Below are positions 50,486 through 55,411 of a stretch of 64,000 bases of DNA, piece by piece. Numbering within the stretch: the first letter of the stretch is position 1; each line of letters opens with the position of its first letter. The notes beneath the pieces were generated by a model, which did no database searches, was not told where the DNA came from, and saw only the letters and a list, made by a program, of their open reading frames with translations. Source of the stretch: Gammaproteobacteria bacterium (lineage in GTDB: Bacteria > Pseudomonadota > Gammaproteobacteria > Burkholderiales > Burkholderiaceae_D); NCBI GenBank assembly GCA_903970185.1, contig CAJCIC010000004.1:1-64000 (forward strand), in the 5' to 3' direction. A program made the position numbers and the translations under genes.

Positions 50486-50629
50486 TCAATGGGGTCGTCC
50501 GTGGGACCCCGGCCGTGCTTGTTGCTCGTACAGATTGAAGGCAGTTGAGTCGCCGCCACCGACGAGCGCAAGCTCATCGAGCGTCAGGGGAGTCACTTCA
50601 GTGTCAACAACGTCGAATTGGGTGTCCAT
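50486..50629 (-). CDS. Double-glycine-type small peptide, copy 5, with read-through C-terminal extension
   Basis: 47 codons. The N-terminal part is MDTQFDVVDTEVTP, followed by LTLDELALVGGG and DSTAFNLY. The stop codon present in the other copies after the final Tyr is lost (GAG instead), so 13 more residues follow (EQQARPGSHGRPH) before TGA. GGGGAG precedes the ATG. It is the last unit of the array. The only change in the leader block is Ala to Asp before Glu. Either a decaying copy or a variant product. Confidence 0.75.
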   Translation of the reverse strand: MDTQFDVVDTEVTPLTLDELALVGGGDSTAFNLYEQQARPGSHGRPH

Positions 50630-50658
50630 GTTCGAGCTCCCCGCAAGTTGGCTATATA

Positions 50659-50772
50659 TTAGTACAGATTGAAGGCAGTCGAGTCGCCACCACCAACGAG
50701 TGCGAGTTCAGCCAGCGTCAGCGGCTTGGCAGCGGGAACTTCAATTTCAACCACGTCGGTCTGGGTGTTCAT
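50659..50772 (-). CDS. Double-glycine-type small peptide, copy 4
   Basis: 37 residues: N-terminal MNTQTDVVEIEVPAAKP, then LTLAELALVGGG and the octapeptide DSTAFNLY, stop TAA. The N-terminal part is acidic and variable between copies; the rest is invariant. GAGAA lies upstream of the ATG. It is separated from copies 3 and 5 by 26 and 29 nt. Predicted cleavage after the third Gly is inferred from the double-glycine leader pattern. Confidence 0.8.
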   Translation of the reverse strand: MNTQTDVVEIEVPAAKPLTLAELALVGGGDSTAFNLY

Positions 50773-50798
50773 GGGCGGGTTCTCGTGAATTGTCTTGT

Positions 50799-50903
50799 CT
50801 AGTACAGGTTGAAGGCGGTCGAATCGCCACCGCCGACCAGCGCGAGCTCAGCCAGGGTCAGGGGCGTGACTTCAAATTCAACAGCATCGACTTGGGTGTT
50901 CAT
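50799..50903 (-). CDS. Double-glycine-type small peptide, copy 3
   Basis: 34 residues, the shortest copy: MNTQVDAVEFEVTP, then LTLAELALVGGG and DSTAFNLY, stop TAG. It lacks the AAAK-type segment seen in copies 2 and 4, so the length change falls in the leader, never in the predicted mature part. AGGA precedes the ATG. Confidence 0.8.
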   Translation of the reverse strand: MNTQVDAVEFEVTPLTLAELALVGGGDSTAFNLY

Positions 50904-50929
50904 GGGTAGGTCCTGTTGGAGTGTCTCAA

Positions 50930-51043
50930 TTAGTACAGGTTGAAAGCGGTCGAGTCGCCACCACCAACGAGCGCGAGTTCAGCCAGCGTCAGGGGCTTGG
51001 CAGCGGCGATTTCAATTTCAACGATGTCGATTTGGCTATTCAT
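50930..51043 (-). CDS. Double-glycine-type small peptide, copy 2
   Basis: 37 residues: MNSQIDIVEIEIAAAKP, then LTLAELALVGGG and DSTAFNLY, stop TAA. AAGGAA sits 6 nt before the ATG, the best ribosome binding site of the five. It is closest in sequence to copy 4, suggesting duplication. Confidence 0.82.
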   Translation of the reverse strand: MNSQIDIVEIEIAAAKPLTLAELALVGGGDSTAFNLY

Positions 51044-51077
51044 GGTGATTTCCTTGGTCAAGATGGCTTAGGTAGGA

Positions 51078-51197
51078 TTAGTACAGGTTGAATGCGGTTG
51101 AATCGCCGCCGCCCACAAGAGCGAGTTCGGCCAGTGTCATCGGCGCAAAAACGGGGGTCTGTGCGGCGACTTCTGTGTCAAGAATTTGCGTGTCCAT
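51078..51197 (-). CDS. Double-glycine-type small peptide, copy 1 (promoter-proximal)
   Basis: 39 residues, the longest canonical copy: MDTQILDTEVAAQTPVFAP, then MTLAELALVGGG and DSTAFNLY, stop TAA. AGGAA precedes the ATG. Compared with the double-glycine consensus the -12 residue is Met instead of Leu, while Glu -8, Leu -7, Val -4 and Gly -2/-1 are kept. It is the first unit transcribed. Confidence 0.82.
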   Translation of the reverse strand: MDTQILDTEVAAQTPVFAPMTLAELALVGGGDSTAFNLY

Positions 51198-51573
51198 GGT
51201 TTGGGTTCCTGAAAAGTTGGTGTAGGGTGGGTCTACTAGGTAGAAATCTCAGTCAAGTCTAGTTCTCGAAAATAGAGGAGGAAGCTGGTTCCAAAGGCCC
51301 GTTTTGCTGGGGGGCCGGCCGTGTATCTCTCTGTCTCGCGTGCTTCAGTTGCATCCATTGCCTGGTTTTCTAGTTGCGGACCGCTGTGGGGATTACCGGT
51401 GCAACCTCGTTGCATCTGCGCCACAGGCATGCTCAGATGAAGGGTTACGAAAGTGTCCGAATCCACAGGAGCCTCAGTTTCGGTAGCATCGCTAAAGAGT
51501 GAACAACTGTCAATGGCGTTGCGTGTGTGCAATGTGACCTTTCCATTTCCGAATTGATATAGAACCCAGTTTT
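51198..51573. promoter_or_regulatory. Divergent intergenic region between peptide array and TPR/HD-GYP gene
   Basis: 376 nt, AT-richer than its surroundings by eye. On the minus strand TTGACA (51513-51508) with GATGCT 17 nt on, and TTGACT near 51255, are weak promoter candidates for the array. On the plus strand GATATAGAA (about 51557-51565) could be a -10 for the TPR gene. A 98-codon minus-strand frame with a TTG start (51236-51532) has no recognisable features and I do not call it a gene. Confidence 0.35.
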
Positions 51574-53598
51574 ATGCCGAACCTGGCCGAACTACTAGGA
51601 AAAGCAGGCCTCAAGAATCTTCCGGGGGCCGAGTTTGACCACTTGGGCGAGCTGCTCCAGTCAGCCACGCCAGAGGAGGCTATTGCCTTCCTCGAACGCA
51701 TTTTTTCAGAGGTGAAAACGCTGGTTTTGCGGCAGGATCCGATGGACACGCCCCTGGTCGAAAGGACGGTCCGGCTGTTCTCCGCCGTTGGCCTAGAAGA
51801 GTTCGAGGGCCACGTCCTTGGCATCCTGCATGCGCTGGGGTCCTTCTACCTATACCTCGGCAAATTCCGTCAGGCGATTACAACACTGGAGCCCCTTTTG
51901 CCGGTGGTGCGGCGCCGCGGCAAGCCCGACGCCTTGCGACGCCTGCACAACACGCTTGGCGTCTGTTACGCCGACGTCGCCGATTTCAGCAAGGCCATGG
52001 AGCACTACGATGCGGCACTGACGATTGCCCGCGAAATGGGCGATCGCTTCCTGGAATCAGCGGCGCTCGTCAATGCCATGGGCGGTTTAAAGCAGATGGG
52101 CCTGTATCAGGACGCCATCGACGTGGGCAACCAGGTCCTCGCGATGAAAATCGATACCGAGCCCGGTCGCGACGTGCGCTTTCAATGCAGCAGCATCGGC
52201 CTGTTTTGCGCGCACCGACTGCGCGACCACGCCGCCGCCCTGGCGTTTCTCTCCGAGGGCAGCAGCCTGCTCGATTGCCCTGCGATCTCACCATTTAATC
52301 GCGCAACGTTTGAACAAAGCCGTGCGAATTACCTCATCGATACCTACGACGCCGAGACTGCAGAAATGTGTCTTGCCGCCGCACGCGAAGCCCTGCGCGA
52401 TTGCAAAAATCCCCGGGTTCAGATGCACATCGCGATTTCCTCGGCAGTGGCGCAGTGGGCAAGCGCCTCGTCGATGGATCCTCCCGACTGGCGCCGCATT
52501 TTGAGCAGCCGCGCATCGCTCAAGGACATGTACCGGGAATCCAGCGAGTCGAAGTGGGAGTTCGCCGACCTGTTGCGCGCGCTATTGAAGACGCATAGCA
52601 ACGCCGAGAGCCCGGACGTCGCCCGTCAGGGCATGGAGTATGGCCGTGAGCTTGTCGAGTTTGCGACCAATTTCCGCCGCGCAAAGTTCTATCGGCAATT
52701 GACCGACCAGGGCGTGTACATGGAAAACTCCGTGATCCGCCCCTTCGATCCCTTCAAGAACTCGCGCAATTGGCTCAATGGCGCGCCGATCGAATCGCCG
52801 CCCAAGGTCATCCCGGCGCCAAGGATCGAGAAGCATCCGGAAGTCACTGCGATTCACGAAGACATTGCCTCACTTCGGGTTCAGGCCTTCAGAAGCGAGA
52901 TCAAGACACTCGCTTATGCAACTGCTGAAAACTGGGCGCTGGCGGCCGAGTTTTTTGACGACGACACCGGCAAGCATTGCTTCAGGGTGGGCTATCTTGC
53001 TGGTCAGCTCGCGCAGCAGATGAGTCTGGAGCCGCAGTTTTGCGTCCAGATCGAACATGCCGCCCGCCTGCATGACATCGGCAAGATTGCGGTCAACGAA
53101 ATGATCCTGCTCAAGCCCGGCCGGCTTGATCCCCAGGAGCTGGCCGCAATGCAGCTGCATACGCAAGCCGGCGCGGACATGCTTGAGGGAACCAACGATC
53201 CGACGCTCAAGCTCGCGATCACGGTCGCCAAATACCACCACGAATGGTGGAACGGCGAAGGTTATCCGGCGCGCCTTAGCTTTGACCGCATTCCCCTTGC
53301 CGCGCGCATCACAGCGCTTGCCGACGTCTACGACGCGCTCACCAACGTCAGGCCGTACAAGGTTGCATGGAAGCCCGCTGCGGCAATCGACGAGATGCAG
53401 CGCTTGACGGGTTTGCAGTTCGATCCATCGCTCGTGCCGGCTTTTCTGGCGGTGCTCGAACGCTACATCCCGATGCTCGAGCAAAATCGCATCCCCGGAC
53501 TCAAGGATCTCGAGGAGAATGCGCTGCTGCAGTCACGGCGCAATCTGCTCTCGACCATCAATGCCACGCCCGCATTCTCTGCTGGCGCACGCAAATAG
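51574..53598 (+). CDS. TPR-like / HD-GYP domain protein (candidate peptide-responsive c-di-GMP phosphodiesterase)
   Basis: 674 residues, no membrane helix or signal peptide. Residues about 80-350 are helical TPR-like repeats (for example LHNTLGVCYADVADFSKAMEHYDAALTIAREMGD and the following VNAMGGLKQMGLYQDAIDVGNQVLAM). Residues about 440-640 are HD-GYP: H468, H500-D501 in LHDIGK, H529, H555-H556-E557 then NGEGYP (563-565 GYP), D584 and RPYK at 593-596, so the metal ligands look intact. There is no receiver domain, so the TPR part probably carries the input. It is divergent from the peptide array; sensing those peptides is inferred by analogy with TPR-based peptide receptors of Gram-positives. 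Confidence 0.88.
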   Translation: MPNLAELLGKAGLKNLPGAEFDHLGELLQSATPEEAIAFLERIFSEVKTLVLRQDPMDTPLVERTVRLFSAVGLEEFEGHVLGILHALGSFYLYLGKFRQAITTLEPLLPVVRRRGKPDALRRLHNTLGVCYADVADFSKAMEHYDAALTIAREMGDRFLESAALVNAMGGLKQMGLYQDAIDVGNQVLAMKIDTEPGRDVRFQCSSIGLFCAHRLRDHAAALAFLSEGSSLLDCPAISPFNRATFEQSRANYLIDTYDAETAEMCLAAAREALRDCKNPRVQMHIAISSAVAQWASASSMDPPDWRRILSSRASLKDMYRESSESKWEFADLLRALLKTHSNAESPDVARQGMEYGRELVEFATNFRRAKFYRQLTDQGVYMENSVIRPFDPFKNSRNWLNGAPIESPPKVIPAPRIEKHPEVTAIHEDIASLRVQAFRSEIKTLAYATAENWALAAEFFDDDTGKHCFRVGYLAGQLAQQMSLEPQFCVQIEHAARLHDIGKIAVNEMILLKPGRLDPQELAAMQLHTQAGADMLEGTNDPTLKLAITVAKYHHEWWNGEGYPARLSFDRIPLAARITALADVYDALTNVRPYKVAWKPAAAIDEMQRLTGLQFDPSLVPAFLAVLERYIPMLEQNRIPGLKDLEENALLQSRRNLLSTINATPAFSAGARK

Positions 53599-53820: not shown

Positions 53821-53867
53821 TGTCATAGCATTCAAGTATCGAATAACGGTATTTACATGCTATGACA
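53821..53867. promoter_or_regulatory. Inverted repeat over the abiEii start, likely antitoxin operator
   Basis: TGTCATAGCAT (53821-53831) and its exact complement ATGCTATGACA (53857-53867) are separated by 25 nt; the right arm contains the toxin ATG at 53862. The surrounding DNA is AT-rich. AbiEi antitoxins are known to repress their own promoter through inverted repeats, so this is a probable binding site. Confidence 0.6.
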
Positions 53868-54695
53868 ATTTTGTATTCCCCTGCCGAAAAAGGCTTTAGT
53901 GCTCGCTATGATGCGATCGACCGTTGCCAGATCGCCCTGTTGCGCGAAATATCGGGCGAAATGGGAGATCGACTGATTCTCAAGGGCGGGATGGCCATGC
54001 GCGTCGCATTTGGCAGCATGCGGCTTACGAAGGACCTCGATTTCGATCGAAATAACACGATCCGTCAAACCACGTTAAAACGTGGACTGGAGCGTGATCT
54101 GTTACGCGCTGCCAACTTCGCGCAGATTCGCGAATCGACGGTAACGATTACCAAGGATACGTCGACCACCGTGCGTGCTCGCGTCGAAGGCAGGATCGGT
54201 GACAACGAAGATGCCCGCTTCGAGGTCGAAGTGTCAGGCAGGGATCGGCCGTCCCAGCGGAACATTCGCTTAGCCATTGTCACAAGTCCGCGAAGCTATG
54301 CGATGGCGCCCTTCCCGGTAACCACCTACACCAATGAAGCGTTGGCCGCGATGAAGATCGCAGCAGCCCTGTCAGAGAGGCGCAACGCGCCGCGCGACCT
54401 ATACGACCTGCGAGCCCTGATGCGCTCGGGTGCCGATCCCACATCCCTTCTAGCCAGCCAGGGTGCTCAACAACTTCAGGGGTTTGCCGACCGGGCCCTG
54501 GAAAAGTTGGAAATCCTGAGCTATGCGCTCGCTCAGCAGGAGCTCCTCCCCTTTCTTCCCCCTGCTGAGCGCGCCGCGCTCGACGAGCACGAATGGTTGA
54601 ACGCCACACTGGAAGTTGCCGAGGGGATCTCAACGTGGTGCAAGAAAGCGCTGCAGCTGCAGGATACGCCCTCACCTAAAACACCGTCCCCATGA
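53862..54695 (+). CDS. AbiEii/AbiGii-family nucleotidyltransferase toxin
   Basis: 277 residues of the AbiEii toxin family (type IV toxin-antitoxin/abortive infection). The nucleotidyltransferase motifs are LILKGGMAMRVAFG (about 38-51) and TKDLDFDR (56-63) with the metal-binding aspartates, and later ALAAMKIAAALSERRNAPRDLYDLRAL. Family members use nucleotides to modify tRNA or other targets and stop growth. The ATG lies inside an inverted repeat. The stop overlaps the antitoxin start by 4 nt. Toxin first is the reverse of the classical abiEi-abiEii order. Confidence 0.85.
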   Translation: MTILYSPAEKGFSARYDAIDRCQIALLREISGEMGDRLILKGGMAMRVAFGSMRLTKDLDFDRNNTIRQTTLKRGLERDLLRAANFAQIRESTVTITKDTSTTVRARVEGRIGDNEDARFEVEVSGRDRPSQRNIRLAIVTSPRSYAMAPFPVTTYTNEALAAMKIAAALSERRNAPRDLYDLRALMRSGADPTSLLASQGAQQLQGFADRALEKLEILSYALAQQELLPFLPPAERAALDEHEWLNATLEVAEGISTWCKKALQLQDTPSPKTPSP

Positions 54696-55411
54696 AGGCT
54701 CCCTGGAAGATCGAAGCCGAACGCCTTTTGATGGGTCATGACAGCCCCTCGGTGCTGACCACCGCCCAGCTGCGCTCAATTGCAAATGCCTATGCCGATC
54801 CGCCGCCGGCCCATTCAACGTTCATGCGATGGATGGCGGAAATGGTACGTGGAGGGAGGCTAAAGGAAGTGATTCGTGGCGTTTACCTGAATCGCCTCGG
54901 ACACCGCAGTGCGAGCCCAGCCGCTGCCGCCAACTGGATCAGAAGCCGCAGCGTGGTGGGCCTGTCCTGGGTGCTGGAACAGGCGCATATCACCAACAAC
55001 TTCGGCGACACCGTCACGTGCGTGATTCCAACCGATGCGAATTTGCCGACGCCGCAGATATCGGACCGCCAGACCGCTGCGGGTCCCTTTCGGTTTTTTG
55101 CAATGCCCGCGGCCTTGGTCGACGAACGTGCGGGCCGATTTGAGGATATTCGAGACCTGCGTTTCGACTATCCCCGCACCACCCCAGAAAAAGCATTCCT
55201 CGACTGGATTTTTCTTGGGGCATCCCACAAGAGCCGCCTGACGCGGCCGCCTTACGATCTGGACGTGGCCAGCCTGGATGCGGCACGCATCGAGCGCATC
55301 GCACGCGCGATGCAAGTCGAAGAACTTCTCGCCGGCTGGATGTCGGACTACCAGCTCTACCAGCAGGACGAGGAGGTCCGCGAGAACTCCGCCAAGCACC
55401 TGCGCCTGTAG
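54692..55411 (+). CDS. AbiEi-family antitoxin/transcriptional regulator
   Basis: 239 residues. The N-terminal winged-helix-like part (VLTTAQLRSIANAY...FMRWMAEMVRGGRLKEVIRGVYLNRLG) is the AbiEi DNA-binding region. The central and C-terminal parts resemble the antitoxin domain (YPRTTPEKAFLDWIFLGASH). It should neutralise the toxin without direct protein contact and repress the operon. Overlaps the toxin gene by ATGA. The expected operator is the inverted repeat at the toxin start. Confidence 0.78.
   Translation: MKAPWKIEAERLLMGHDSPSVLTTAQLRSIANAYADPPPAHSTFMRWMAEMVRGGRLKEVIRGVYLNRLGHRSASPAAAANWIRSRSVVGLSWVLEQAHITNNFGDTVTCVIPTDANLPTPQISDRQTAAGPFRFFAMPAALVDERAGRFEDIRDLRFDYPRTTPEKAFLDWIFLGASHKSRLTRPPYDLDVASLDAARIERIARAMQVEELLAGWMSDYQLYQQDEEVRENSAKHLRL

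Follow-up and report, generated by a model that had tools for sequence, protein, structure and literature searches.

The DNA stretch analyzed here, called the window, comprises the 64,000 nucleotides at positions 1 to 64,000 of contig CAJCIC010000004.1, from the 3.7 Mb draft genome GCA_903970185.1 of a bacterium placed in the Burkholderiales. It contains five micro-open reading frames (micro-ORFs) in tandem on the minus strand, at 50486-51197, and, head-to-head with this array and 376 bp from it, a gene for a protein with a TPR domain and an HD-GYP domain. An earlier note on this DNA, made from the sequence alone, had described five tandem, near-identical micro-genes, each with its own ATG and purine-rich ribosome binding site. 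Reading of the ORFs bore this out: an ATG start and an upstream purine stretch were found in all five copies. The TPR-HD-GYP gene, which is key to the mechanism proposed below, was absent from that note. The features are listed in Table 1.

Table 1. Features of the micro-ORF array and its surroundings (window coordinates).
Feature	Coordinates	Strand	Length	Remarks
Micro-ORF 5 (distal)	50486..50629	-	47 aa	stop lost; 13 residues after DSTAFNLY
Micro-ORF 4	50659..50772	-	37 aa	ends in LTLAELALVGGG then DSTAFNLY
Micro-ORF 3	50799..50903	-	34 aa	ends in LTLAELALVGGG then DSTAFNLY
Micro-ORF 2	50930..51043	-	37 aa from ATG	ends in LTLAELALVGGG then DSTAFNLY; upstream TTG at 51061 is the alternative listed start
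Micro-ORF 1 (first transcribed)	51078..51197	-	39 aa	ends in MTLAELALVGGG then DSTAFNLY
Divergent intergenic region	51198..51573		376 bp	between array and TPR-HD-GYP gene; likely holds both promoters
TPR-HD-GYP protein	51574..53598	+	674 aa	TPR about 1-380, HD-GYP about 440-650; proposed peptide receptor and c-di-GMP phosphodiesterase
AbiEii-type nucleotidyltransferase	53862..54695
AbiEi-like gene	54692..55411			weak match

The five products share the segment ELALVGGG-DSTAFNLY. The block ELALVGGGDSTAFNLY is present in five of five copies and is preceded by acidic leaders of variable sequence. The earlier note had placed this block at the C-terminus of all five. This holds for four copies; in the distal one a GAG stands in place of the stop codon and reading continues for 13 residues (EQQARPGSHGRPH), and this copy is probably decaying. 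The assignment of the leaders to the double-glycine type was confirmed: E-8, L-7, V-4, G-2 and G-1 are present in all copies and L-12 in four, with M at that position in micro-ORF 1.

A repeat scan gave a start-to-start spacing of 131-148 bp. When the 17-codon shared block was compared pairwise over the five copies, the codon differences were synonymous in 78 cases and non-synonymous in 4, with all four at a single A/D position. Because of this excess of synonymous differences, we conclude that selection acts on the encoded peptide. The same ratio, and the conservation of the arrangement in many genomes, argue against a decaying repeat without a product, an explanation that can hardly be credited even though the distal copy has lost its stop and a promoter scan of the divergent region found no site matching the sigma-70 consensus. 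A search of the whole draft genome recovered these copies plus a single additional match (E 1.69), and no further convincing copy. Five precursors, two from the window and three from relatives, were scanned against family databases: none matched a Pfam family, and NCBIfam gave only two sub-threshold rows, both for one relative, the better being GRASP_targ_2 (E 0.045).

The divergently transcribed gene encodes a protein with TPR matches and an HD_5 match at E 9.4e-29 (Pfam). The HD-GYP motifs are intact (HDIGK at 500, HHEWWNGEGYP at 555). In an alignment of 41 such proteins, H500, D501, H529, H555, H556 and GYP were found in all, and H468 and D584 in 40. With its metal ligands and GYP motif the protein is a putative HD-GYP phosphodiesterase of cyclic di-GMP (c-di-GMP). 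Its highest 19-residue hydropathy is 1.19 and it has no long hydrophobic stretch; it is predicted to lack a membrane segment and to be cytosolic. No helix-turn-helix (HTH) or Rap family was found among the Pfam matches of this protein and ten scanned relatives, and the output domain is the C-terminal HD-GYP.

Homologous loci were sought starting from a single 37-aa window peptide, run against 60 genomes. This search gave weak matches elsewhere (seven of 60 genomes at E<=1, the window genome included), and profiles and the TPR protein were then used. Homologues, for which the earlier note had suggested a search, are present in related genomes, also as tandem arrays: G020, G035 and G056 contain arrays of GGG micro-ORFs with other cores, e.g. 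DAVLCFG, DVTVVIA and MGSVVFDD, and G010 contains a partial array at a contig end. In four loci (L028, L029, L030, L031) the arrays adjoin a TPR-HD-GYP gene, a C39 ATP-binding cassette (ABC) exporter and an adaptor of 416-498 aa; the domain scans for this kind of locus covered five TPR proteins and, from L028, the exporter and the adaptor.

A first precursor profile, A2, matched 24 of 392 genomes of the family at E<=0.1. Five of these were counted as real (G000, G010, G020, G035, G074), and the divergent arrays of genus g9 were missed. The TPR part, used as a query in its turn, matched 17 of 399 genomes from the order at E<=1e-20, the window genome among them. A collection of named genomes contributed 21 more loci; Betaproteobacteria bacterium GR16-43 (CP019169.1) and Beta proteobacterium AAP99 (LJIA01000002.1) are named carriers. 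At E<=1e-15 the TPR family was nearly absent from a draw of the class (4 of 369 genomes, namely the window genome and three weak matches), was found in a draw of the phylum only in the window genome (1 of 249), and matched no plasmid record of PLSDB.

The three genomes of genus g9 contained 7, 5 and 3 TPR matches at E<=1e-10, the weakest of which are perhaps other TPR proteins. Many of these genes have a core of their own: SALVDY, GASGVLF, CTATHF, TTGVVDY, AITNTL, VDANTF, TTSISF, TAVVDY and TTSMSF. Genome G766 contains five distinct cores over four loci (L254, L098, L101, L253), each beside a TPR-type gene. One of these loci, L254 (G766:C5:42000-56000), has three TPR-type genes and two arrays, with SGIYLF once and SGIFVLA three times.

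Two of the sequences carry titles from outside the order. L125 (CAJCHO010000130.1, titled Mycobacteriaceae bacterium) has the size and cassette genes of contig G020:C130, and L128 (CAJCID010000171.1, titled Rhodospirillales bacterium) those of contig G074:C171. These titles are probably wrong, as G020 and G074 are placed in the family of the window genome.

The pairing of precursor and TPR-HD-GYP gene was counted over 71 distinct TPR-HD-GYP-type ORFs, 66 of which have at least 400 bp of 5' flank, by looking for a micro-ORF within 1.3 kb upstream. A divergent double-glycine micro-ORF was found for 40 of the 66. Two of these 40 (with the cores RHSCCPV and NTPSYR) are probably chance matches. The pattern matched eight times in 413 kb elsewhere in these loci, a background rate at which 0.83 of 66 would be expected. 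The 26 unpaired genes comprise the gene of L030, which shares an array on its own strand; two whose array is cut by a contig end (L031, L114); five with a convergent precursor about 1 kb downstream (L109, L112, L116, L120, L123); L214, with an over-called start; L213, with two precursors detected only under a relaxed pattern; L111, with a precursor-like stretch in which a start codon was not found; and groups of seven and eight that are considered below.

The association was also found in the reverse direction. Profile A8, built from 41 precursors without TPR information, was run against the 399 genomes of the order. At E<=1e-4, small ORFs matched in 14 genomes, each of which is one of the 17 with the TPR protein (hypergeometric 2.9e-23, a number that overstates independence because 12 of the 14 had supplied rows to A8). 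Of four stretches fetched solely from A8, three (L253, L254, L255) carry a TPR-type gene in divergent orientation to the array, and the fourth, L252, has the same core as L107 and ends at a contig end. Matches above E 1e-4 outside the TPR genomes were mostly longer frames and chance-like. One profile match, in G501, is a precursor-like stretch in which no start codon was found. The array of the window belongs to a conserved Burkholderiales module consisting of the precursor and the TPR-HD-GYP gene.

The earlier note had also suggested looking for a C39 exporter elsewhere in the genome. Two are present, on contigs C60 and C71. Neither this check nor the one for homologues went against the reading of the note, which the data support. 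In a tree of 48 exporters, the 23 that are linked to cassette loci form one clade (98/100) with C60 and two exporters of genus g9, and C71 falls outside it. C60 is 74% identical to the L028 exporter, within the 46-79% of the other cassette exporters; C71 is 41% identical. The Cys, His and Asp motifs are kept in C60 (ECG, NHFVV, HDP). A gene at a distance of about 10 kb from C60 shares 60% identity with the direct flank of the cassette in L029. C71 is disfavoured as a partner because it lies outside the cassette clade, and C60 would be the exporter that serves the array, although it is unlinked to it. An HlyD-type adaptor is also present in 19 of the 23 exporter loci and was not found in the scans of L095, L098, L130 and L137. 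No precursor was found beside the cassette-type exporter in genus g9, where unlinked TPR-peptide pairs exist.

In total, 81 micro-ORFs were counted over 40 loci, two doubtful ones included. The residues following GG number six in 25 micro-ORFs, seven in 47, eight in 8 and ten in one, so that the predicted core is 6-8 residues long in 80 of the 81. Most precursor genes span 30-55 codons, and the chosen start was ATG in 78. Loci have one to six copies, and 19 of 40 have at least two. Contigs end at or near the arrays in L027, L028, L031, L107, L113, L114 and L252, for which the copy numbers are lower bounds; such ends would be expected if near-identical tandem copies break assemblies.

The C39 leader consensus, ending in GG with E-8, L-7 and V/I-4, was found in the window copies and in the position counts over one ORF from each of the 40 loci. 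Within a locus, the cores are 0.89 identical (76 pairs) and the variable leader part 0.49. Between loci the relation is inverted, with 0.12 for the cores and 0.63 for the last eight leader residues (780 pairs). From these identities, the leader would be matched to a shared exporter, and the core to a factor specific to each locus.

Over 37 loci, core distance correlated with TPR distance at r 0.56 (p 1 in 5001), with HD-GYP distance at 0.55 and with leader distance at only 0.15. These values bear on an alternative in which the peptide never re-enters the cell: the TPR-HD-GYP protein would bind the unexported precursor in the cytosol, measure export load or precursor level, and set c-di-GMP cell-autonomously. 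Such a role would suit a protein predicted to be cytosolic, an exporter unlinked in the window genome and a g9 exporter with no precursor found beside it. It would need no re-entry, a step that is only assumed, and the leader also follows the receptor (r 0.39). The core, however, follows it more closely (0.56), the full C39 leader consensus is kept, and seven SBP_bac_5 (OppA-type) binding proteins over the family cut-off in the window genome make import possible. We consider this alternative unlikely.

To identify other recurrent neighbours, the surroundings of the TPR gene were compared at 39 array loci, out to 4 kb and for ORFs of at least 40 aa (2682 in all). Only the TPR protein (37 loci), the C39 exporter (22) and the HlyD adaptor (15), together with the precursors and with frames that overlap any of these genes, occurred in more than five loci. 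One metabolic-looking gene occurred in five loci and several others in four. No immunity, kinase or tailoring family exceeded five of the 39; immunity genes private to a locus would escape this count. A reading of the cores as ribosomally synthesized and post-translationally modified peptides (RiPPs) was rejected: no further enzyme family was found in more than five loci, and the one at five resembles a metabolic flanking gene.

The earlier note had left the choice between a signal and a bacteriocin-like factor. A signal is favoured by the present data, because the TPR-HD-GYP gene is the constant neighbour (37 of 39 array loci) and, exporter, adaptor and precursor apart, no further family exceeds five of the 39. 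The alternative, in which the exported product would act as a narrow-range bacteriocin or toxin and the TPR-HD-GYP protein would merely regulate the locus, draws on the use of C39 exporters and double-glycine leaders by bacteriocins and on the diversity of the cores between loci. Class II bacteriocins and microcins are, however, far longer than 6-8 residues, and the five different cores of G766 each lie beside a TPR-type gene. With cores of this length and no immunity-like family recurring within 4 kb, a bacteriocin is not the best reading, and we hold it to be quite unlikely.

The same neighbour count bears on whether the TPR-HD-GYP protein might be an exporter-associated regulator or chaperone, with another molecule, such as a membrane kinase encoded elsewhere, as the real receptor. 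Proteins are frequent ligands of TPR domains, and several loci have a second, more divergent TPR-HD-GYP copy. This explanation appears very unlikely, given that no other family exceeds five of the 39 loci and that the TPR-HD-GYP/peptide pair is kept without a linked exporter in the window genome and in genus g9.

We propose that the array and the TPR-HD-GYP gene together specify a C39-exported peptide signal that returns to the cytosol and is perceived there by a TPR domain in control of a c-di-GMP phosphodiesterase; we put the probability of this reading at about two in three. The five copies would be redundant, all encoding precursors of a single secreted oligopeptide. A C39 ABC exporter and HlyD-type adaptor, for which C60 is the best candidate in the window genome, would cut the precursor after the double glycine and export the 8-residue peptide DSTAFNLY. 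The peptide would accumulate and re-enter the cytosol, probably through an oligopeptide permease, where it would bind the superhelical TPR domain of the divergently encoded protein. Binding would alter the HD-GYP activity and turn peptide concentration into a change in c-di-GMP. The computed results are the ORFs, the selection on the peptide, the conserved precursor/TPR-HD-GYP pairing, the exporter clade and the intact HD-GYP motifs; cleavage, export, re-import and binding, as well as any direction of control and phenotype, are inferred.

Several observations weigh against this proposal. That a peptide of 930 Da crosses two membranes on its way back is an assumption, and C60 lies on another contig than the array. 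The micro-ORF pattern used in the pairing count was designed after examples had been seen. Seven of the unpaired TPR genes are the second of a TPR pair (L094, L095, L096, L127, L130, L131, L143), and eight have no findable precursor (L099, L100, L108, L117, L118, two in L203, L212). In one conserved TPR column of the alignment (position 208), 93% of the 41 proteins have Asn and the window protein has Ile. Not only the core but also the leader follows the TPR part, and the partial correlations (r 0.15 and 0.09) do not tell TPR and HD-GYP apart. Shared descent alone could produce the core-receptor correlation; co-evolution as a proof was rejected, as the correlation is not assignable to the TPR over the HD-GYP part and shared descent explains it equally. 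In the seven loci with a tandem pair, the second TPR-HD-GYP gene is more divergent than the first, and no precursor of its own was found for it.

The fold of the receptor candidate is equivocal as well. An AlphaFold model of the window protein (predicted local distance difference test, pLDDT, 87) showed helical repeats, and its HD-GYP part matched structures 4mcw and 4r8z (Foldseek, VIA-align). When residues 1-370 of the model were submitted to VIA-align as the TPR part, the first matches were four phage phi3T Rap entries at Z 24.5-24.8 (8rsu, Z 24.8, root-mean-square deviation, rmsd, 5.4 over 327). These were followed by APPBP2 (Z 23.7), RapJ with peptide (4gyo, Z 23.4, rmsd 5.0 over 321), RapF with peptide (4i9c, Z 23.2) and NprR (5dbk, Z 22.4, rmsd 5.9 over 324), and lower by MalT (Z 20.2) and LGN (Z 19.5).

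Two results weaken the Rap match. The top 50 of Foldseek itself consisted of LGN and other TPR proteins, with no Rap, and a control TPR-GGDEF protein of the same genome matched Rap 4gyo at Z 25.4, the window protein reaching 24.8. The control, modelled at pLDDT 81 from a 3-row alignment, prefers LGN (Z 30.4) over Rap. The Rap-like fold was downgraded as a proof for these two reasons. It counts as weak support, because the order of preference differs from that of the control but the absolute Rap score does not.

The module would work like the nearest known systems, those of the RRNPP family of Firmicutes (Rap-Phr, NprR-NprX, PlcR-PapR, Rgg-SHP, PrgX). As in these, a short propeptide gene adjoins the gene of a TPR protein, predicted in our case to be cytosolic (here an array at 51197-50486 and a receptor from 51574), and the mature peptide is predicted to be C-terminal, with 6-8 residues at the predicted cleavage site compared with about 5-10 in RRNPP. 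Diverse private cores and several pairs per genome are features of RRNPP as well. The best VIA-align matches of the TPR part include Rap and NprR, the control TPR-GGDEF protein scoring Rap similarly. The module described here differs in its Gram-negative hosts, its head-to-head gene order, its arrays of up to six tandem copies and its use of a double-glycine leader and a C39 exporter.

RRNPP propeptides have a Sec-type signal peptide and follow the Sec route; the leaders found here, read by eye, are short and acidic, lack a long hydrophobic core and end in a double glycine. The output domain is HD-GYP, in contrast to the HTH or Rap helix bundle of RRNPP. Because neither the Sec-type leader nor the HTH/Rap output domain was found, the module was not filed as an RRNPP member. 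RRNPP has been described in Gram-positive bacteria (PMC13220807), and the available part of PMC10075063 assigns oligopeptide signals to Bacillota and regards small molecules as the typical signals of Pseudomonadota.

With the double-glycine/C39 peptides, the precursors share the leader consensus (L-12, E-8, L-7, V-4, G-2, G-1), the C39 exporter and, in most linked loci, the HlyD-type adaptor. That class includes the ComC/BlpC pheromones, class II bacteriocins and microcins. The cores found here are much shorter, and their partner is a TPR-HD-GYP protein, with no recurring histidine kinase within 4 kb. Double-glycine secretion outside Gram-positive bacteria is also known from Synechococcus elongatus, in which small secreted double-glycine proteins are needed for biofilm; the products there are small proteins, and the available part of that source mentions no TPR-HD-GYP partner (PMC4997328).

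No description of a precursor/TPR-HD-GYP system of this kind was found in the open-licence literature, which is only a part of what is in print. In the diffusible signal factor (DSF)/RpfC-RpfG system of Xanthomonas, an HD-GYP phosphodiesterase is under the control of a cell-density signal, by way of a fatty acid signal, a membrane sensor kinase and a response regulator. The components here are, in contrast, a peptide and a cytosolic TPR domain fused to HD-GYP. The DSF/RpfC-RpfG system is named in PMC13220807.

A sister architecture was observed at the five loci with a convergent precursor. About 1 kb past the TPR-HD gene, the opposite strand encodes a double-glycine precursor whose core has the form [DE]xxPxW (e.g. 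DFEPEWP, DVTPDWP, DAGPNWP, DSTPNW, EIGPYW). In the two loci checked, L116 (4532-7182) and L120 (5532-8489), the intervening gene encodes a LuxR-type regulator (GerE). In L116, L117 and L123 the H, D, HH and GYP positions are kept, and the Lys of HDxGK and the Glu of HHE are lost. Perhaps this apparent sister branch has a transcriptional output. In the window, the two genes just downstream of the TPR-HD-GYP gene, at 53862-55411, form a type IV toxin-antitoxin-like pair.

We are inclined, with some reserve, to a more general view, in which Burkholderiales have a Gram-negative counterpart of Rap-Phr: hexa- to octapeptides exported by C39 transporters and re-imported would directly switch soluble TPR-HD-GYP phosphodiesterases. 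In some genera one central exporter would serve several private peptide-receptor channels across the genome, and in the sister branch a LuxR-type regulator, along with a convergent double-glycine peptide of the [DE]xxPxW type, would be coupled to a TPR-HD protein.

Annotation likely misses these precursor genes, because they are mostly of 30-55 codons and repetitive, with arrays at contig ends in several drafts. That Gram-negative bacteria have double-glycine signals is an older proposal; it would become here a set of dozens of defined peptide-receptor pairs that can be synthesized and tested. If the proposed mechanism is true, Gram-negative bacteria would have a form of peptide communication that has not been described so far. 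Peptide signals read by cytosolic TPR receptors, described as a Gram-positive trait (PMC10075063, PMC13220807), would extend to Gram-negative bacteria, and in the Burkholderiales diversifying peptide-receptor pairs would be linked directly to c-di-GMP, a switch for motility and biofilm.

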